Part shown: positions 3,488 to 18,945 of the stretch, one piece after another | Layout of the letters: every line of letters begins with the position of its first letter | Numbering within the stretch: the stretch's first letter is position 1 | Assembly (NCBI RefSeq): GCF_020852615.1 | Contig: NZ_JADZAJ010000032.1 | Location: 62,001-126,000 of the forward strand | Direction of reading: 5' to 3' | Length of the DNA stretch: 64,000 nt | From: Nitrosomonas sp. | GTDB taxonomy: Bacteria > Pseudomonadota > Gammaproteobacteria > Burkholderiales > Nitrosomonadaceae | Notes under the pieces: generated by a model | The model's database searches: none | Seen by the model: the letters and a program-made list of their open reading frames with translations, nothing else | Told to the model about the DNA's origin: nothing | Program-made: the position numbers and the translations under genes

Positions 3488-5347
3488 TTGGTAAATGTCT
3501 TTTACGAAGAAGCCGGTGCCCTCAAAGTCGGCAGTGTTCTGACTGACAATACTGCTTCCCTGCAAATCGAATCGGCGCACGGGAAACGTTCCAAAATCAA
3601 GGCAACATCGGTTTTGTTACGTTTTGAAAATCCGCCAATGCATGGATTCATACAGCAGGCACAGGAAAAAGCGGCCGATATTGATGTCAATTTCCTGTGG
3701 GAATGTTGTGAAGAAACCCGGGAATTCACCGGACAGGAACTGGCTGGCGATTATTTTGGCCACACACCGGATCCCGTCGAAATTGCTGCCATCACGATTC
3801 TGCTCAGCCAGAATCCGGTTTATTTTCATAAAAAGGGGGCAGGCCGTTTCAGGGCAGCCCCGCCGGAAATCCTGCGGGCGGCACTGGCCAGCCGTGAAAA
3901 GAAACGACTGGCTGAGGAGAAACAGGCCGGCTACGTGCAGCAACTGACAAAATTTGAGCTGCCCGACACCTTCCGGCCGCTGATTGATGACCTGTTATAC
4001 CGGCCGGATAAAAATACAGTTGAATGGAAAGCGCTGGAAGCCGCATGTGAGGCTACCCGACTGAGCGTGCCCGGATTACTGGAACAATGCGGTGCGATTC
4101 CTTCAACACATGATTACCATTTCAACCAGTTTTTACACGAACATTTCCCGGAAGGGATCAGCACAGATTCATACCCTGCCGATTTAGCCGGCATGGCTCC
4201 GGAAGATTTACCGGAAGCCGGTGTCAGGGCATTCAGTATCGATGATGCCACTACAACTGAAATCGATGATGCCTTCTCTGTTACCCCGCTGAGCTACGGC
4301 AGTTTCCGGATTGGAATACACATTGCCACGCCCGCTTTGGGAGTGGCACCAGATTCCCTGCTTGACAAACTGGCAGCAAGACGTCTGTCCACGGTTTATC
4401 TCCCCGGCCGTAAAATCACCATGCTCCCGGAAAGTGTCATTCAGCACTTCACCCTGGGAGAAACGCACCAGCGGCCGGTACTCTCGTTATATCTGGAGGT
4501 GGCGGATGATTTCACCGTCACCCGCACTTTCAGCCGGATCGAGACCATTGAAGTTTCAACCAACCTGCGCCTTGATTCACTCGAACAGCAGTTTAACGAA
4601 ATCACCCTGCAAGACAACCGGACAGATTACCCTTTTGCCCATGAGCTGAAACTGCTCTGGAATTTTGCCTGCAAAATGGAAAAATTACGTGGCAAGGATC
4701 AGGACATCAACAGTGAAAAAACCGATTACAGTTTCGTCATAGTTCAGGATCATGTTTCGGTTTACGAACGTCGCCGGGGTGCCCCTATTGACAAGGTCGT
4801 ATCAGAACTGATGATTTTCGCCAATGCTGAATGGGGCAAGCAGCTGGCAGATGCCGGTTATGCCGGGATTTACCGCAGTCAGGGAAACGGCAAAGTGAAA
4901 ATGAGCCTGTCCCCTGCGCCACATCAGGGGCTGGGTGTATCACAATATGCCTGGAGCAGCTCGCCCATGCGGCGATACGTCGATCTTATCAACCAGCGCC
5001 AGTTAATCGCACTGGTGTCGGGCACCCCTCCACCCTACACCCGGGAAAACGACACACTGCTGATCACTATGCGTGATTTTGAAATTGCGTATGCAACCTA
5101 TGCGGATTTCCAGCGCGGTATGGAACGCTACTGGTGCCTGCGCTGGCTGCTGCAGGAAAACGTCAGCACATCCGGCGCCATCGTCATCAGGGAAAATCTG
5201 GTTAAACTGGATCGTCTGCCGCTGGTTGTCCGCGTACCCTCGTTACCGGATCTGTCTCCCGGCACGCCAGTCGCGATCGGCATCTCACAGATCAATCTGC
5301 TTGATCGTTCGCTCAACGCCAGTTTTCTTGGTAAAAGTGAAGGTTGA
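3488..5347 (+). CDS. RNase II/VacB-family 3'-5' exoribonuclease
   Basis: A 619-residue RNB-domain exoribonuclease, predicted to degrade RNA processively from the 3' end in the cytosol. The RNB active-site signature is visible as AFSIDDATTTEIDDAFSV near residue 250, with the metal-binding aspartates conserved. A second family block, SSPMRRYVDLINQRQL, lies near residue 495. The N-terminal ~200 residues do not look like the usual paired cold-shock domains, and the C-terminal part after the RNB domain is short, so it resembles the divergent RNase II-like proteins of betaproteobacteria and cyanobacteria rather than E. coli Rnb or Rnr. The start is TTG with GAGG five bases upstream. tonB follows after 3 bases, so the genes are probably co-transcribed. 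Confidence 0.88.
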   Translation: MVNVFYEEAGALKVGSVLTDNTASLQIESAHGKRSKIKATSVLLRFENPPMHGFIQQAQEKAADIDVNFLWECCEETREFTGQELAGDYFGHTPDPVEIAAITILLSQNPVYFHKKGAGRFRAAPPEILRAALASREKKRLAEEKQAGYVQQLTKFELPDTFRPLIDDLLYRPDKNTVEWKALEAACEATRLSVPGLLEQCGAIPSTHDYHFNQFLHEHFPEGISTDSYPADLAGMAPEDLPEAGVRAFSIDDATTTEIDDAFSVTPLSYGSFRIGIHIATPALGVAPDSLLDKLAARRLSTVYLPGRKITMLPESVIQHFTLGETHQRPVLSLYLEVADDFTVTRTFSRIETIEVSTNLRLDSLEQQFNEITLQDNRTDYPFAHELKLLWNFACKMEKLRGKDQDINSEKTDYSFVIVQDHVSVYERRRGAPIDKVVSELMIFANAEWGKQLADAGYAGIYRSQGNGKVKMSLSPAPHQGLGVSQYAWSSSPMRRYVDLINQRQLIALVSGTPPPYTRENDTLLITMRDFEIAYATYADFQRGMERYWCLRWLLQENVSTSGAIVIRENLVKLDRLPLVVRVPSLPDLSPGTPVAIGISQINLLDRSLNASFLGKSEG

Positions 5348-8033: not shown

Positions 8034-9464
8034 ATGACTGAAGAAAACCGCGAAAATCCGGAAGAGAAACAGCAGAAAGTAATTTCCCTGCTGCAAAAAT
8101 ACAAGCTGGTCGAAGGATTTGTCCGCCTGCAGGATTCCCCGGAGCCGGAGCTGATCGAATCAATCATACAAAAGCAGAATCTGGCCAATTTGCGACAGGC
8201 GCTGGACAGACTTCATCCGGCAGATATCGCCCATCTCCTTGAATCCCTCCCGCTTGAAGATCGCCTGATTATCTGGGGGATGGTCAAGGCCGAGCAGGAT
8301 GGTGAGGTGCTGCTTGAAGTCTCCGACGCGGTTCGCCAGACACTGATCGAGGACATGGACAGCAGGGAGCTGGTTGCGGCGGCAGAACAGCTCGATGCAG
8401 ATGAAATTGCCGACCTGGCACCGGATTTGCCATCTGAAGTCATGGAAGATGTCTTTCGGGCATTGCCGACGGAAGAACGTGAACAACTGCGCGCTGCCAT
8501 GTCCTATTCCGAGGATGCAGTCGGCGCGTTAATGGATTTTGATGTGATTACCGTGCGCAGCGATGTGCGCATCGAGGTAGTGCTGCGCTATTTGCGCCGG
8601 CTGGGTGAATTACCGGATCACACCGATCAGCTGTTCGTGGTTGGCCGTGATGAGCAGCTGCAGGGTGCATTGCTGTTGAATCAGTTACTGGTGAGTGACC
8701 CTGAATCTTCAGTGGCAGAAGTTATGGCGCACGACACCGTCAAATTTTTGCCGGATGATAAAGCGGAAGAGGCCACTCATGCATTTGAACGCTATGATCT
8801 GGTCACGGCTCCGGTTGTCTCTCAGGAAGGAAAATTGCTGGGCCGGGTAACTGTCAATGCAGCCATTGATTTCATCCGCGAAAGAGCTGATCTCGAAGCG
8901 CGCAACCAGGCCGGGCTGAGTGAAGAAGAAGATCTGTTTGCCCCCATCTGGAAAAGTGTACGCAACCGCTGGGCCTGGCTGGCGATCAATCTGGTCACGG
9001 CGTTTATTGCTTCCCGTGTCATTGGATTGTTTGAGGATTCAATCGAGAAACTGGTAGCACTCGCGGCGCTGATGCCGATTGTGGCAGGTGTTGGCGGGAA
9101 TTCGGGCAATCAGACCATCACCATGATCGTCCGCGCCATCGCGCTGGGACAGGTGAATCAGGACAGCACGCTCAAACTGATCAGCAAGGAAATCGGTGTC
9201 GGTATCGTCAACGGTATCGTATGGGGAAGTGTGGTCGGGATATTCACTTACACCCTCTACCATGATGTCCAGCTGGGTCTGGTCATTTCTCTGGCCATGC
9301 TGCTGAATCTGCTGCTGGCAGCAACGGTTGGCGTGCTTATCCCGCTGATTCGCATAAAACTCGGGCGCGATCCCGCTCTTGGCTCCAGCGTCATGATCAC
9401 GGCTGTCACTGACAGCGGCGGTTTTTTTATTTTCCTGGGTCTGGCCACGTTATTTCTGCTTTGA
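8034..9464 (+). CDS. mgtE: Magnesium transporter MgtE
   Basis: An inner-membrane Mg2+ channel of the MgtE family, about 476 residues from the ATG at 8034. The order is a cytosolic helical MgtE-N domain (residues ~25-125, with HPADIAHLLESLP), two CBS domains (~130-250, MDFDVITVRSDVRIEVVL and MAHDTVKFLPDD), a connecting helix, then a five-helix membrane domain starting near residue 305. The pore signature GGNSGNQTITMIVRA is intact. In known members, Mg2+ binding to the cytosolic part closes the channel. An in-frame TTG at 7986 would add 16 unlikely residues. The 177-base upstream gap shows no recognisable M-box. Its 3' end overlaps the convergent nucleotidyltransferase gene by 15 bases. Confidence 0.94.
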   Translation: MTEENRENPEEKQQKVISLLQKYKLVEGFVRLQDSPEPELIESIIQKQNLANLRQALDRLHPADIAHLLESLPLEDRLIIWGMVKAEQDGEVLLEVSDAVRQTLIEDMDSRELVAAAEQLDADEIADLAPDLPSEVMEDVFRALPTEEREQLRAAMSYSEDAVGALMDFDVITVRSDVRIEVVLRYLRRLGELPDHTDQLFVVGRDEQLQGALLLNQLLVSDPESSVAEVMAHDTVKFLPDDKAEEATHAFERYDLVTAPVVSQEGKLLGRVTVNAAIDFIRERADLEARNQAGLSEEEDLFAPIWKSVRNRWAWLAINLVTAFIASRVIGLFEDSIEKLVALAALMPIVAGVGGNSGNQTITMIVRAIALGQVNQDSTLKLISKEIGVGIVNGIVWGSVVGIFTYTLYHDVQLGLVISLAMLLNLLLAATVGVLIPLIRIKLGRDPALGSSVMITAVTDSGGFFIFLGLATLFLL

Positions 9465-10574
9465 AATTTCAGTTCTGGCAGGCAATACCGACAGATAGAA
9501 TTTATAGGCAAGATGCGGTAGCAAACGGTATAGCGGCATTCGCAGCCAGTGGCTGCGCCAGTAAAGCCACATGCGCGCATATTTTGCTCTTCTGGCAGGA
9601 TAATCAGGATGTTGCGGCAGCAATGCCAGCGGTACACAGTAATGCATGACACATTGCGCAATTCGGCCAGGCCGCCGGTCAAGCTGCTTTTCCAGGCCAT
9701 CCGGAATAGCAGATCGCAGCAGCAGGCGACTGAAATACAAACCATAAAACAACGGCTTTCCCAGCCCAAGCTGATTGGCGCGCCCGATCAGTTTCTGCCG
9801 GAAAAGTGGCTGCCGGTTGCTGAAAAACAGTAACAGCTCGCTGAAATCCACCAGATGACGCAGATCATCGGCCAGCTCATTGTTCTGGAACAGATTGACG
9901 GCACAGTGCAGCACCATGTCTTCCGGGCTTAATACATAGCACCCGGCCTCTTTCACTTCAATTGCCGCTTCCCGGAATGACTGCGGGTCAATTTTCAGTT
10001 TGCCCAGTGGAGAAGAAAGCGTATGGTGAACATCCACTTCAATACTGCGTTCAGGATGTACCAGCGCGGGAATTTCATGGCTCCACTCACGATAGTAACG
10101 CTCATCGTAATCAGTCAGCGCGTGATGCTGCCAGCCTTTCTTCAGCAGGGCAGCTTCAACCCGGCGCAGATTTTCCTTTGACACCAGCAAATCGAGATCA
10201 GCAAACATGCGCCCTGCCGCATTCGGCAGATCCTGCAGCAGATAGGCCATTCCCTTGAGCACAATGACGGGCATATCAGAATCATCCAGCGCCCAGCGCA
10301 CCCGGTTCAGCTCCCAACGTACTGATTGCTGCTGTTTTCTCGCCTGGATCAGACCGGAACGCAACAGATTGGCGGCACGTATCGGGATATTGTCCAGCAA
10401 TCCTTCTCTTTCCAGTCTGGCTGCCAGATAGCCGGATAGCTGCGCCCGTCTTGCCAGCCGCAGCAGTAATTCCCATTGCCGATTATCGTATCCGATCAGG
10501 GAAGCAGGCTGAATGATCGCTTCCAGCAGCAGCCGGTGATGCTCCGCCCGGAGACCTGTCTTAAATTCAATCAT
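9450..10574 (-). CDS. Nucleotidyltransferase family protein of an HprK-related (type A) system
   Basis: A 374-residue protein resembling the uncharacterised nucleotidyltransferase family NTP_transf_5. The core is VIVLKGMAYLLQDLP followed by GRMFADLDLLVSKENL (residues ~100-130). The D-x-D pair there is the expected metal site, and IEVDVHHTL (~190) supplies a third acidic residue. The substrate is unknown. The ATG overlaps the stop of the kinase gene (ATGA at 10574), so the two are translationally coupled. In lasso-peptide clusters, a homologous nucleotidyltransferase acts after an HprK-like kinase to decorate the phosphate, so a similar late tailoring step is a reasonable guess. It is the last gene of the four-gene operon. 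Confidence 0.75.
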   Translation of the reverse strand: MIEFKTGLRAEHHRLLLEAIIQPASLIGYDNRQWELLLRLARRAQLSGYLAARLEREGLLDNIPIRAANLLRSGLIQARKQQQSVRWELNRVRWALDDSDMPVIVLKGMAYLLQDLPNAAGRMFADLDLLVSKENLRRVEAALLKKGWQHHALTDYDERYYREWSHEIPALVHPERSIEVDVHHTLSSPLGKLKIDPQSFREAAIEVKEAGCYVLSPEDMVLHCAVNLFQNNELADDLRHLVDFSELLLFFSNRQPLFRQKLIGRANQLGLGKPLFYGLYFSRLLLRSAIPDGLEKQLDRRPGRIAQCVMHYCVPLALLPQHPDYPARRAKYARMWLYWRSHWLRMPLYRLLPHLAYKFYLSVLPARTEISKQK

Positions 10575-11497
10575 CAGTTCATATCAGCCGGCATATCAGT
10601 CAGCGCATCCAGTGCTGCCAGCACACTGTCAAAATCGGAATACACCAGTTTGCGGCATTCACAATTCCGAACCAGATGCGTGACCGCATTAAACGCGGTT
10701 TCTCCCAGCAGCTCATAGTTAAATGCATTGCTGGCAAGTAACAGAAATGCCTCGGATCGCGGTAGCGGCTCCAGTTGCAACGCTGCACCAGTTGACCATT
10801 TTGGAAAAACAATCCAGCGGGATTGTGCTGTCTCATCGGTACGCCTGATACTCTCCTGCGGCGGGCGCACATGGGCAACCGTACCTTTCAGCGTACCAGG
10901 TATTTCCGGCCCCAGCACAGCTTCCGGCAGATAATCGCGAATGACTTCTATGGACCGGTTCTTGAGTGGCATCAGCCGGGGCAGTGGAAAAAACGCACCA
11001 GACTGCGGATCCATCAACCCGAACTCATCGGAAAACAGCCGGTAGCCGCGGTGAATCAGTGCCGTGCACAAGGTTGTCTTACCACTGCCGGGCCAGGCTG
11101 GCAGCAACAGCACATGGCCATTGCGTTCCACGGCAGCAGAATGAAACAGCAGAAGGTGATTGATACGCATGGCGATGGCCAGATTGATACCCCACTCCAG
11201 CGTTGCCAGCGCCTGCTCTGCAGGAACAGGTGGAAATGGAGAGCGGCCATCAACCTCAAACTGAATCAGCCGGGCAAACGGTCGCCTGATCGAACACCTT
11301 GATATTACCCTGACGTGGAACTCGGCAATCTCAGCCTCTCCCATCAGCGAATAATGGGCATACATCCGGTAAAGCTGATCAATAAGCTGGGGCAGCCGGG
11401 TGCGAATGGACAGGTTGAACGGCCCTGTTTTTACACGCAACCCCGACCCGGTAAGCAGTACACGGAATGCATCCCGCGACAGTTGTCCAGCCCTCAC
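10574..11497 (-). CDS. HprK-related kinase A
   Basis: A 307-residue protein with an HPr kinase-like P-loop fold. The Walker A sequence is LLPAWPGSGKTTLC near residue 130, followed by the conserved acidic motif FSDEFGLMDP (~155) and PRLMPLKNRS (~170), the arrangement of the HprK/phosphoenolpyruvate carboxykinase-like P-loop. The N-terminal half of classical HprK is replaced by an unrelated ~110 residues. The family is known from small operons with a PqqD-like protein and is presumed to phosphorylate a peptide or protein, not HPr. It overlaps pqqD-like by 4 bases and the nucleotidyltransferase by 1 base. No PTS genes are nearby, which argues against carbon catabolite control. Confidence 0.82.
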   Translation of the reverse strand: MRAGQLSRDAFRVLLTGSGLRVKTGPFNLSIRTRLPQLIDQLYRMYAHYSLMGEAEIAEFHVRVISRCSIRRPFARLIQFEVDGRSPFPPVPAEQALATLEWGINLAIAMRINHLLLFHSAAVERNGHVLLLPAWPGSGKTTLCTALIHRGYRLFSDEFGLMDPQSGAFFPLPRLMPLKNRSIEVIRDYLPEAVLGPEIPGTLKGTVAHVRPPQESIRRTDETAQSRWIVFPKWSTGAALQLEPLPRSEAFLLLASNAFNYELLGETAFNAVTHLVRNCECRKLVYSDFDSVLAALDALTDMPADMN

Positions 11498-11781
11498 GCG
11501 CTTTCTTTTACTCTCACAATCAGGCCCAGTGCTTCAAAACGCTGCAAGGTCCGGGCGATTTGTTCGGGAAATTGCGTATCAGGCAACAATGTAAAATATT
11601 CCGACAATTTTTGGCACAATCCCTCAAGGGTAACAGGAGACTGGCCCAGCATTATAAGAACCTGCAATCCCATTTCATTCAGGAAATGGGTTTTGCCGGA
11701 TTCCGGCTGGAAGACAGTAAATTCACCATCCCAGTTTTCTATGCGGAGTGATGAAAAGCCGTGTACTTGCCAGTGATCCAT
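11494..11781 (-). CDS. PqqD-family peptide chaperone of an HprK-related (type A) system
   Basis: A 95-residue protein with the winged-helix layout of PqqD/RiPP recognition elements. The N-terminal beta part is FTVFQPESGKTHFLNEMG, followed by helices LQVLIMLGQSPVTLEGLCQKLSEYF and EQIARTLQRFEALGLIV. PqqD-like proteins bind leader peptides and present them to modifying enzymes. It lies 21 bases after the small Tat-exported protein gene, which makes that protein a natural candidate partner, and overlaps the kinase gene by 4 bases. The family assignment is from length, pattern and context; no catalytic residues are expected. Confidence 0.8.
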   Translation of the reverse strand: MDHWQVHGFSSLRIENWDGEFTVFQPESGKTHFLNEMGLQVLIMLGQSPVTLEGLCQKLSEYFTLLPDTQFPEQIARTLQRFEALGLIVRVKESA

Positions 11782-11802
11782 TCAGGCCGGCGTGACAGCT
11801 AA

Positions 11803-12201
11803 TTACAGCCCGGGAAGAAATACCCCCTTGCCCGATAAAGAGGTATATGCAGCCGAGGAAATAAGAATGCCGCCATTATTTAGGCAATTCTCCGAAGAAT
11901 CTTCCAGACTCAGCGTAGCAACCGGAGGTTCGCCCAAATCATAAGTTGAGCTGCCATTTTCTACAGGAGTCGCACCGTTAACACATACATATTTACCATC
12001 GACCTGGTGCGCATTACCTGCATCGACTGCACCCACCAGATTACTCGATCGTGCCAGCGCTGCACCGCTATGCAGTGTCATGATGACGGGGATAGCAACG
12101 GTACTTTTAAGCAATCGTCTGCGAGCCGGCTGGGGAGCAGCAGCCACTTGTTCACCGGTAATAATCTGACCTGTTTGTCCCTGTATTTTTTCTTCCGACA
12201 C
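11803..12201 (-). CDS. Small Tat-exported two-cysteine protein, possible substrate of the kinase/PqqD system
   Basis: I do not recognise a family. From a GTG at 12201, chosen because AAGG lies 8 bases upstream, the protein has 132 residues. It begins with a ~25-residue polar leader, then a twin-arginine signal (ARRRLLKSTVAIPVIM) with a hydrophobic stretch ending SGAALA-RSS. The mature part is about 80 residues, rich in Gly, Ser, Asn and Val, with two cysteines (YVCVNG and ENCLNN) and a terminal SGKGVFLPGL. A GTG at 12210 would add three residues. It is the first gene of the operon with pqqD-like, kinase and nucleotidyltransferase genes. A role as modified precursor is inferred from position and size only. 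Confidence 0.65.
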   Translation of the reverse strand: MSEEKIQGQTGQIITGEQVAAAPQPARRRLLKSTVAIPVIMTLHSGAALARSSNLVGAVDAGNAHQVDGKYVCVNGATPVENGSSTYDLGEPPVATLSLEDSSENCLNNGGILISSAAYTSLSGKGVFLPGL

Positions 12202-12540: not shown

Positions 12541-12564
12541 AAAAAATCCCGGCGAATCGCCGGG
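12541..12564 (-). terminator. Rho-independent terminator downstream of czcA
   Basis: A perfect 7-bp GC stem (CCCGGCG/CGCCGGG, loop AAT, 12548-12564) is followed on the minus strand by a run of T (12546-12541). It lies 59 bases past the czcA stop, in the right orientation to end the czcCBA transcript and isolate it from the kinase/PqqD operon. Confidence 0.85.
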
Positions 12565-12622
12565 AAATTTCATGAAGTGCTGTATCTTAACCGACAATTC
12601 AGTCATGGCATGATTACCCCTT

Positions 12623-15850
<3,228 letters not shown>

Positions 15851-15924
15851 TTACCGGATAACACAAGAAGCGAGCATCGTGCAGCACTGCGATGCACCCG
15901 AAAAACCAGTTCCCGGAAATGTCC

Positions 15925-17424
15925 TTAGTGTTCATGCGCTGCCTCTGCCTTGCCCAGTTCGGATTTGAGAATAAAACTGTTACCCGCAGCGTAGTATTCT
16001 CCGGCAGACAGGCCATCAACGACTTCGGCCATTTGTTTATCGCTACGTCCCAGTTTGAGTGGACGCATTTCGAAAACATCACCGTAACGGCCAAATACGA
16101 CCGACTGATCGCCTATTGTCTGTATGGCGTCCAGCGACACCGCAACCGGGACTTCAACCGCTTCGGTCTGCAAATCCGCTTTGACGAACATACCCGGCCG
16201 CCATTGCTCATCCTTATTTTCCAGCTCCACCCGGGCAACCGCCGTGCGAGTCTGCTCATCAAGCAGCGTCGTCACATAAATCACTTTTCCTTTTCGTATC
16301 AGATCATAAGCATCTGCCCGGATAATTGCGGGCTGCCCCGCATGAATCTGGTGCAGATTACGGGGAAATACCCTGACAGCTGCCCAGATCGTGGAAATAT
16401 CAGCAATGATGAATGCGGTTTTATCTTCCTTGACCGCTTCTCCGGTAACAATTGTCTCGTCAATAACAATTCCGGAAATGGGAGAACGGATTTCATAACG
16501 GGTGATATTTTTTACTGACGATCCGGATTCCAGTGATACCCCCAGCGCCAGCAGACGTTCGGCTGCCAGCTGGGTCGTAATACTGGCTTCGTCCCACTGC
16601 TGCCGGGCGGAGAGATAATCCTGCCGGGCAGTAATCTTTTCTCGCCACAGCTGTTCTTCCCGATCATAGATCGTTTGTGCCAGCGCCTGCCGCCTGCGGG
16701 CAAGCAGATACTGACTGCGCAAATCAGCCAGTATGGCGCTTTCCATGACAGCAAGCACCTCTCCTTTTTTTACACGCTGGCCGTGATGACGCTCGATGGA
16801 TACCACCATACCGGGCAGACGCGGCACAACATGCACGATCTTGTGTTCATTGAAGATGATTTCACCCGGCAGGGTAATCTCTGAGTGGATGACAGCCGGG
16901 CCGGCTGCAGCCAGCCTGATGCCGTTGTTTTGCATTGTTGCATCGGACATTTCCACTCGCCCTTCGACCTGGCTGTAATTCCAGCGATAGCTTTTCCCCT
17001 GATATTCAGCAGCGATAACCAGCTCAAAAGAATGGGGCTCTTTGACTTCCTGATCACTGACCAGAAAATCATTTTCCGGCCGAAAATGGAACAGCTGCGC
17101 CGGCTGGCCAAGGCGCGACAATGCCACCGTTACTTTCACTTCTGCCGGTGGCAAGGATTTTTTCTGCTGGTACGGATATATCCTGAACTGTGGAAATGCA
17201 CCACTTTCATGAATGATAAGTTCCAGACCAAGACCATCTTCCGAGAATAAATTTCCTCCATGCGGCCCGATTGCAGATCCAGATCCAGGCGCAGCTTTGT
17301 TTTCTGAAACAGGCTGCCCAGCAGTATCCGGTGTTACAGATTTATCCTGTATCAGTATCCAGGTTCCCAGCAGGACGCCGGCCAGAATAACCGCCACGAT
17401 GGGTAATCGTCCGGTAACGTTCAT
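15925..17424 (-). CDS. czcB: Periplasmic adaptor (membrane fusion) subunit of the CzcCBA pump
   Basis: A 499-residue HlyD-like adaptor anchored by an N-terminal membrane segment (LPIVAVILAGVLLGTWILI, residues ~7-25). An N-terminal extension of ~130 residues with beta-rich sequence, typical of CzcB rather than CusB, precedes the barrel/lipoyl part (VVPRLPGMVVSIERHHGQRVKKGEVLAVMES, around residue 200). A helical hairpin with the second lipoyl half (IRSPISGIVIDETIV) follows. It links the RND pump to the outer-membrane channel. The C-terminus (LGKAEAAHEH) ends with histidines. The start overlaps the czcC stop by 4 bases (ATGA). Confidence 0.9.
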   Translation of the reverse strand: MNVTGRLPIVAVILAGVLLGTWILIQDKSVTPDTAGQPVSENKAAPGSGSAIGPHGGNLFSEDGLGLELIIHESGAFPQFRIYPYQQKKSLPPAEVKVTVALSRLGQPAQLFHFRPENDFLVSDQEVKEPHSFELVIAAEYQGKSYRWNYSQVEGRVEMSDATMQNNGIRLAAAGPAVIHSEITLPGEIIFNEHKIVHVVPRLPGMVVSIERHHGQRVKKGEVLAVMESAILADLRSQYLLARRRQALAQTIYDREEQLWREKITARQDYLSARQQWDEASITTQLAAERLLALGVSLESGSSVKNITRYEIRSPISGIVIDETIVTGEAVKEDKTAFIIADISTIWAAVRVFPRNLHQIHAGQPAIIRADAYDLIRKGKVIYVTTLLDEQTRTAVARVELENKDEQWRPGMFVKADLQTEAVEVPVAVSLDAIQTIGDQSVVFGRYGDVFEMRPLKLGRSDKQMAEVVDGLSAGEYYAAGNSFILKSELGKAEAAHEH

Positions 17425-18791
17425 TGATTGCGCTCCTTCCCTTGAATATTGAGTCTCGTGGAATCTGCGGCTGAATCAGCAAGCGGTGCTGCAATCAGCT
17501 GCTCGATGGTGTTGACCAGACGCTGATAACTGGCCAGCGCCCGCACATAAAGAATGCGATTCTGAAAAAAGGCACGCTGGGCATCCAGCATTTCCAGAAA
17601 ACTGAATTTACCCAGCTGGTAACCCCGATTGGTAATCTCAAAAGCATTTTTCGCACCTGGCAATACCTCATCATGCAATAGCCGGATTTCATTCCGGGCA
17701 GCCAGCAGGTTTTCGTAGTTGCGTGTAAATTCAGTTCTGAGCTGCAATTCAACTGATGCACGCTCGTCTATTGCCTTATTCAGGCGGTGGTGTGCTTCCA
17801 GTTCATTTCCCTGGTTGCGGTTAAAAACCGGGAGGGGGATGGTTACTCCCACCACAGCGGTTGTGGCATCTACCCCGAGATAGCGCCGAATACCTGCATC
17901 AACAGTGATATTCGGAATTTTTTTCGCTTTTTCCAGCGCAACCATTGCCTCACGCTGTGCAATATTTTTAAGGCTTTGCAGTACGATCGGATTTTCTTCG
18001 AGGCGATTTACCAGTTGATTAAACTCCGGTATCTCAACGAATGACTCCAGTTCGCCCAGCACCTGACTAAACCGGGGTTCCGCTTCTCCCCAAAGCAGGG
18101 CGAGCCTGGTTCTGGCGGCTGACAGATTGTGCCGTGCCTGCTCCAGCTCGATATTTGCCGTAGATAGCGCAACTTTCGAACGTATCGCTTCCATGGGCGG
18201 CGATTTTCCCGCCTCAACCCGTTTCACCACTGTCTCCATGGCAGCCTGAACCAGATGCAAGGTATCGCTCAGTACACTGACCTGCGCCTGGTTTTCCAGC
18301 ACATCAACAAAAGCACTGGCCGTGCGGGCAATGATTTCCAGCCGTTTGGCCGCATACGCCTGGTCTGCCATCTCCTGCCCCAGTGTTGCCACATTCACCC
18401 GGGCCGGCCGCTTGCCACCGAGCTCAATCAGCTGGCTGATACGAAAAGTCGTAAATTTCTGGATGTCACTTCTGGAGGAATTGATATCCTCTGCTTCGAT
18501 GCTGAATTCAGGATTGTTAAACAACCCTGCCTGTAATTTAGTCCCTTCATAAGCAGTGACCTCTTTAGAAAAGGCTGCCAGCTCGGGATTGTTCTGCAGG
18601 ACCAGCTGCAACGCCTGCCGCAAGGTAAGCTCACCCTTCCCGCCAACAGCACCGGCCTGGACATTCATGACCGGCACCGCACCATCGCCCAGGGCGGGGA
18701 GCGCTCCTGTCAGCAAAGATGCCAGAAAAAACATTACCCGCCCCGGGCGAAATAATCCCTGCCTTCTTTTTATTACCTGATATTCGATCAT
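17421..18791 (-). CDS. czcC: TolC-family outer-membrane channel of the CzcCBA pump
   Basis: An outer-membrane efflux protein of about 456 residues. It has a basic n-region (KRRQGLFRPGR), a signal peptide (VMFFLASLLTGALPALGDG), then two tandem TolC repeats, the first starting ELTLRQALQLVLQNNPELAAF (~residue 50). Long helical stretches rich in Leu, Ala and Glu follow, and the second repeat ends RALASYQRLVNTIEQL. It forms the exit duct for metal exported by CzcAB. I prefer the ATG at 18791; a TTG at 18821 would extend it by ten residues. It is the first gene of the pump operon and its stop overlaps czcB. Confidence 0.9.
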   Translation of the reverse strand: MIEYQVIKRRQGLFRPGRVMFFLASLLTGALPALGDGAVPVMNVQAGAVGGKGELTLRQALQLVLQNNPELAAFSKEVTAYEGTKLQAGLFNNPEFSIEAEDINSSRSDIQKFTTFRISQLIELGGKRPARVNVATLGQEMADQAYAAKRLEIIARTASAFVDVLENQAQVSVLSDTLHLVQAAMETVVKRVEAGKSPPMEAIRSKVALSTANIELEQARHNLSAARTRLALLWGEAEPRFSQVLGELESFVEIPEFNQLVNRLEENPIVLQSLKNIAQREAMVALEKAKKIPNITVDAGIRRYLGVDATTAVVGVTIPLPVFNRNQGNELEAHHRLNKAIDERASVELQLRTEFTRNYENLLAARNEIRLLHDEVLPGAKNAFEITNRGYQLGKFSFLEMLDAQRAFFQNRILYVRALASYQRLVNTIEQLIAAPLADSAADSTRLNIQGKERNQ

Positions 18792-18945
18792 GATGATTGA
18801 TAACGAAGTTATGCTGCACAAACGTATCGAATGTGGACAGCGAACAGGTCAGGCTGCCGGACAGATATCCGTTTCGAGATACTGAAAACTGTCTGGTACC
18901 CGGTGTTTTTACCCGGCTTTACTGCAATAACCAGCCGGAAATAAA

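Follow-up and report, generated by a model that had tools for sequence, protein, structure and literature searches.

On the minus strand of a 64,000-nucleotide stretch of Nitrosomonas sp. DNA (assembly GCF_020852615.1, contig NZ_JADZAJ010000032.1, positions 62,001 to 126,000; the whole stretch is here called the window), a set of four genes on balance appears to make a single exported protein decorated with phosphate. A recognition element (RRE) of the kind known from ribosomally synthesised and post-translationally modified peptides (RiPPs) would guide the phosphorylation of Ser56, a nucleotidyltransferase would elaborate the phosphate and the protein would leave the cytoplasm by the twin-arginine (Tat) route. 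The genes encode, in this order, the exported protein (11803..12201), a PqqD-like protein of the RRE type (11494..11781), an HprK-related kinase A (10574..11497) and a nucleotidyltransferase (9450..10574), with junctions of +21, −4 and −1 bases. These coordinates and junctions agree with an earlier note, made from the sequence alone, which had described four same-direction genes with a 21-base gap followed by 4- and 1-base overlaps. As that note had also stated, no phosphotransferase system (PTS) or pyrroloquinoline quinone (PQQ) genes adjoin the set in the window, and neither a macrolactam (lasso) cyclase nor a B2 leader peptidase is found among the neighbouring genes. Existing NCBIfam or Pfam models already name three of the four (TIGR04353, TIGR04352 and PF14907). 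What is new is a substrate found at nearly every locus, its division into two classes and the candidate site in it.

From the sequences and by analogy with known systems, we infer how binding, phosphorylation and its site, the nucleotidyltransferase product, Tat export and the timing of these steps would fit together. The PqqD-like RRE would bind the conserved N-terminal leader of the substrate and present the substrate to the kinase. The kinase would phosphorylate, perhaps polyphosphorylate, the conserved Ser56 just behind the leader, and the nucleotidyltransferase would then add a nucleotidyl or sugar group to the phosphate. Since adenosine triphosphate and nucleoside triphosphates (NTPs) are needed, the modification would occur in the cytoplasm, before export, and the finished protein would exit by the twin-arginine route. 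The leader would serve both as the RRE-binding leader and as the signal peptide and would be removed by an ordinary signal peptidase, so that no dedicated peptidase or exporter would be needed.

The four genes form one conserved unit that is common to many distantly related bacteria. Among 300 genomes of the order, 50 scored above the curated cut-off of the kinase model TIGR04352, as did 61 of 398 in the phylum; the 50 loci of the order were taken for comparison, and the phylum loci L175-L200 were left out of the analysis. When the set was compared across genomes, as the earlier note had proposed, the genes for the PqqD-like protein, the kinase and the nucleotidyltransferase were found together at all 50 order loci, each with a relative of the small exported protein beside the kinase. 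A profile grown from the window's exported protein (P0001) found one relative per locus, on the strand of the kinase, at 49 of the 50, and the exception, L087, has a relative there too. The order substrate, PqqD-like protein, kinase, nucleotidyltransferase was kept at 42 loci, and the substrate gene followed the nucleotidyltransferase gene at 5. In a second collection (genome_contigs), comprising the best 80 of 279 confirmed stretches and sharing five identical kinases with the order set, a profile from the order set found the substrate at 77 of the 80 loci, the PqqD-like protein at all 80 and the nucleotidyltransferase at 77. Two of the substrate misses (L112 and L113) are at contig ends; the third is L129, where an IS1-type transposase gene stands in the substrate's place. 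Absence of the small protein from most loci that carry the other three genes, which would have refuted the earlier note's proposal, was thus not observed in either collection. The nucleotidyltransferase was missed at L115 and L163, near contig ends, and at L114, which is not near one. Outside these counts, profile searching missed the PqqD-like gene at L093 and the substrate at L094, where inspection identified it as a 161-aa hypothetical protein upstream. Within a sample of the genus Nitrosomonas, four of eight genomes had the kinase and the same four had the substrate. Among the matches listed, the closest named kinases were those of Nitrosomonas sp. HPC101 (85%) and N. eutropha (80-81%).

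Some loci depart from the common arrangement. The transposase gene of L129, a Phycisphaeraceae metagenome-assembled genome, occupies 3816-4655 at the expected substrate site, and the genes for the PqqD-like protein, the kinase and the nucleotidyltransferase look intact there. At L138 and L166 the operon does not end with the nucleotidyltransferase gene, which is instead found upstream on the other strand. At L061:4162-5490 the PqqD-like and kinase profiles match one and the same 442-aa frame, a possible natural fusion.

Relatives of the substrate are concentrated at the kinase. With the substrate profile A2 (24 rows), 58 matches at E ≤0.001 were obtained in the 300 whole genomes of the order, 49 beside the kinase and 9 elsewhere, and all 46 matches below E 1e-8 were within 1.6 kb of a kinase. 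The best match away from a kinase (E 3.6e-8) was inside a 2888-residue frame. Partial matches to the profile were located at G088:C22:153547-153849 and G067:C65:867-1172, in frames of 2888 and 1597 residues, and these matches inside very long frames suggest that the class B domain (see below) may also occur in large proteins. P0001 alone as the query gave 11 matches at E 0.01, 8 of them beside the kinase; the other 3 had E values of 0.00497-0.00935, and one kinase-adjacent match was equally weak (0.00605). A larger conserved cluster was not observed: in a flank survey of 82 loci (the 80 genome_contigs loci and two plasmids; frames of at least 100 aa, some flanks ending with the contig), no further flanking family occurred at more than 9.

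The exported protein has 132 residues from GTG 12201 or 135 from GTG 12210, the latter being P0001. The start at 12201 is preferred because of the AAAGGTG upstream and the better fit to the starts of the relatives (MSE...); the residue numbers used here count from GTG 12210 and are lowered by 3 for the start at 12201. P0001 had no significant match in Pfam or NCBIfam. Ten of its relatives gave one match only (E 0.025) and the 24 members of A2 gave scattered single matches (best E 0.0072). In a record for a Sphingomonas plasmid with all four genes listed, the exported protein is annotated as "hypothetical protein", and the substrate of Vibrio alfacsensis is annotated likewise.

The leader of P0001 extends from R30-R31 to a predicted cut after Ala53, placed by the (−3,−1) rule (RRRLLKSTVAIPVIMTLHSGAALA; 12052..12123, minus strand). 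For the comparison of N-termini, 128 substrates were reduced to 123 unique sequences, and L161, which has lost its start, was dropped, leaving 122. An RR pair ahead of a weakly hydrophobic stretch was found in all 122, in a search that gave RR a bonus over KR and RK and with L146, an over-extended frame, being doubtful. By alignment, the twin arginine was present in 49 of 49 and in 24 of 24 proteins. Outside the leader the substrate sequences are variable. The twin-arginine motif suggests that export may be by the Tat route, and TatC is encoded in the genome.

The substrates fall into two classes. Class A (39 of the 122, including the window's protein) carries [STAGC][CAS][WYFLA]xS[FLVI] at most 32 residues from the C-terminus, with the motif serine 2 to 16 residues from the end. 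Class B (76 proteins) carries S[GASRE]xxS directly after the leader, and 7 proteins have neither pattern. The strict patterns were found in 39 and 54 of the 122, against 3.1 and 5.8 in shuffles; they were written after the related sequences had been viewed, and these are descriptive counts and not a blind test. In the alignment A4, made of 24 from the 39 proteins of class A, R30, R31, P41, T45, S56 and S124 are invariant. As class A is defined by the C-terminal motif, the invariance of Ser124 is partly due to selection, whereas that of Ser56 is not. Ser56 (12043..12045, minus strand) is our first choice for the phosphate acceptor. The predicted cut in the window's substrate falls between ALA and RSSNLVG, which would make Ser56 the third residue of the mature protein. 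Of the 39 class A proteins, the cleavage rule gave 34 with a serine at +3, 14 with one at +2 and at most 3 with one at +1, +4 or +5; the rule scores −3, −1, proline at −2 and +1 and the distance from the twin arginine, is blind to +2 onward and was written after the pattern had been noticed.

The two classes track the kinase. In a FastTree tree of 132 kinases, 17 of them without a class label, the label needs 2 changes compared to 32.7 in shuffles, and none of 500 shuffles was as low. The deepest split of the tree (99%) has all 39 class A members and one of class B on one side and the other 75 of class B on the opposite side. L107, which is class B by the loose pattern, stands among the class A kinases and its substrate ends in AIVSATTSVF.

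The enzymes of the set are conserved in their active sites. The PqqD-like protein matched TIGR04353, the PqqD family peptide chaperone of the HPr-rel-A system (E 2.8e-19, 69.8 bits, cut-off 35), as did all 33 PqqD-like proteins of the set A5, and its best solved relative by profile was the lasso RRE TfuB1, a weak match (E 0.015) that is in keeping with the recognition-element character first proposed for it. The kinase matched TIGR04352 with 348.3 bits (cut-off 200) and the nucleotidyltransferase PF14907 (NTP_transf_5) with an E of 6.5e-59. The intact P-loop and D-x-D site that the earlier note had reported were confirmed as WPGSGKTT and FADLDLL, respectively. H119, K140, D157 and E158 of the kinase are invariant at all 50 order loci and likewise in 67 of 67 kinases; LKG108, D126xD128 and D181 of the nucleotidyltransferase also show no variation across the 50 loci. 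In this 50-row comparison L062 was replaced by P0001-P0004. The kinase model, with a predicted local distance difference test score (pLDDT) of 96.6, has the PEPCK/HprK fold. Its fold-match lists contained PEPCK and HprK entries and no kinases of lasso peptides or of the polyphosphorylated peptides described below, which has no bearing on kinship, and single-sequence searches returned no solved relative for the kinase or the nucleotidyltransferase. Because the same genome has a separate true HPr kinase (contig C39) and HPr, HPr, whose modification by the set's kinase would have contradicted the earlier proposal, is an unlikely target.

The set was then compared with the linear polyphosphorylated peptides (LPP) of Bacillota, as described in the available part of the report on them (Popov et al. 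2026, Nat Commun, PMC13381572). There, an RRE binds the leader, the HprK-like kinase LppK adds one to four phosphates to the core Ser3 (AQSNWK), a Ser3Ala exchange abolishes this and a SpI-like peptidase removes the leader. Both systems have a discrete RRE, an HprK-like kinase and an NTP transferase (by domain type, kinship to LppB, LppK and LppN aside) and a precursor with a conserved N-terminus and a variable C-terminus, and neither needs a lasso cyclase. LPP has a serine at core position 3 (AQSN), and the window's substrate would have one there if cut as predicted (RSSN). The host phylum, however, is Pseudomonadota here and Bacillota for LPP, and the leader is of the twin-arginine type here and YxxPxVLxHQ in LPP. 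No SpI-like peptidase gene was found among the direct neighbours (MgtE and an efflux pump), no peptidase model having been run over all flanks. No MsbA-like exporter was found beside the set in the window, and a crude LSGGQ search found such a frame in the flanks of 5 of the 82 loci. Since peptidase, exporter, leader motif and phylum differ, we do not file the set as LPP. By analogy, it probably works like LPP but with a Tat-type leader, as a proteobacterial system. The trio of enzymes without a lasso cyclase had initially been taken to imply a different product. The set is indeed a unit, but LPP, a published non-lasso family with an RRE, an HprK-like kinase and an NTP transferase, is a precedent for the trio.

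In a variant of the same pathway, the kinase would instead act on the C-terminal Ser124 (11839..11841, minus strand), the N-terminal serine being kept for another reason, e.g. the signal-peptidase site. The excess of the class A motif over shuffles and the closeness of its serine to the C-terminus are in its favour, and in paeninodin it is a C-terminal serine that the kinase modifies, according to the accessible part of a review (PMC9266682). We nevertheless regard Ser124 as an unlikely target: its invariance is partly due to the way class A was picked, class B is without the C-terminal motif and has its serines near the N-terminus, and the site in LPP is Ser3.

Several observations weigh against the proposed pathway. 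A serine at +3 was predicted in just 7 of the 76 class B proteins, so the +3 rule is limited to the window's class. Linked genes co-diverge regardless of function, and the match between classes and kinase tree therefore shows that the cassette is inherited as a unit; recognition of the motif by the kinase does not follow from it. For the substrate, the predicted structure is of low quality (pLDDT 63.9, confident only for roughly residues 61-80 and 98-127) and had no match in the PDB, and two generic Tat-signal models each matched a single one of 24 members (E 0.11 and 0.16). Of the 122 leaders, 1 has the lasso/LPP motif [YW]xxPx[LVIFA], and it is not that of the window. The kinase site is H-K-D-E, compared to the H-K-D-D reported for lasso kinases (PMC9266682). 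In the LPP work, as far as the text is accessible, the NTP transferase LppN had no activity in the test host and its deletion changed nothing (PMC13381572).

The fold and active site of the kinase leave its reaction unfixed, as Foldseek ranked PEPCK above HprK and the second acidic residue is Glu and not Asp. The enzymes might accordingly catalyse other chemistry on the substrate, such as direct nucleotidylation, or have as their target a lipid or sugar that is attached later. We consider this improbable, since the site keeps its H, K and D without exception and the lasso and LPP kinases of the same type phosphorylate serine, with polyphosphate possible for the former (PMC9266682, PMC13381572, as far as available). 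That the exported protein is merely co-transcribed, with the kinase and the nucleotidyltransferase acting on another cell component, is highly improbable: polysaccharide-export genes near the set at up to 9 of the 82 loci would offer other possible targets there, whereas the substrate is a near-constant neighbour that co-diverges with the kinase, no other flanking family is as frequent, the PqqD-like protein implies a peptide substrate and HPr has its own kinase.

Other known systems resemble the set in part. The lasso peptides paeninodin and pseudomycoidin also involve an HprK-like kinase, a nucleotidyltransferase and an RRE, and PsmN is reported to add a hexose to the phosphate (PMC9266682, in the part available). 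In contrast to the paeninodin type, the substrate here is an exported protein of 130-280 aa. For the HPr-rel-A system of NCBIfam, the kinase and the PqqD-like protein pass both curated cut-offs, but its names cover the enzymes only, and neither Pfam nor NCBIfam has a model for the exported protein. The SynChlorMet models ScmC and ScmD matched the kinase (E 0.00099) and 8 of the 33 PqqD-like proteins (best E 0.001), far below the curated cut-offs, and none of the radical-SAM partners of the SynChlorMet cassette adjoins the set. HPr kinase/phosphorylase (TIGR00679) shares the fold and the P-loop region, but the set's kinase reached 11 bits against a cut-off of 240, and the true enzyme is encoded on contig C39. 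A defence system was considered and rejected, as PADLOC had no match for any of the four proteins. In the open-licence literature we found no paper using the HPr-rel-A names (TIGR04352/HprK_rel_A, TIGR04353/PqqD_rel_X), none on PF14907 and nothing joining twin-arginine with a RiPP leader peptide and recognition element; the LPP paper was the sole one found for an HprK-related or HprK-like kinase. In the available parts of PMC7470986 and PMC12710340 the terms kinase, HPr and nucleotidyltransferase count 0.

Downstream of the set, a convergent MgtE gene on the plus strand ends at 9464 and overlaps the nucleotidyltransferase gene by 15 bases. Upstream, the gene for an AcrB-family resistance-nodulation-division (RND) pump ends at 12623 on the minus strand, within a three-gene efflux operon (12623-18821, minus strand; by Pfam an AcrB-family RND pump, an HlyD-type fusion protein and OEP). 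A terminator-like hairpin between this operon and the set (12547..12565, minus strand) is a consensus match only, and the whole window has 8 such hairpins compared to 3.5 in shuffles. The RND pump flank cluster was found at 8 of the 82 loci, seven from Nitrosomonas and L138. The commoner flanking families include a polysaccharide-export protein, a GNVR chain-length-type protein and a trypsin-like protease (one representative scanned for each). The polysaccharide-export-type protein lies at most 5 kb from the set at 9 of the 82 loci (L128, L135, L150, L154, L157, L162, L165, L171 and L172), a placement that resembles that of LPP clusters near capsule loci.

The set provides a near-constant partner protein with a conserved serine where the LPP of Bacillota is phosphorylated, and so offers both a substrate and a residue for direct testing. 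Annotation pipelines name the HPr-rel-A enzymes, while their substrate has no family model. More tentatively, and with considerable doubt, we suggest a widespread class of exported proteins, and not small peptides, that is matured by RiPP logic. The Tat signal peptide itself would be the RRE leader and would be held while a serine beside the signal-peptidase site is (poly)phosphorylated and a nucleotidyl or sugar-phosphate handle is added, and Tat would receive the modified protein only, which might then be attached to surface polysaccharide. If the proposed pathway is true, the RRE/HprK/nucleotidyltransferase chemistry would reach beyond lasso and LPP peptides to include exported proteins of Gram-negative bacteria, and it would be tied to signal-peptide-guided export.

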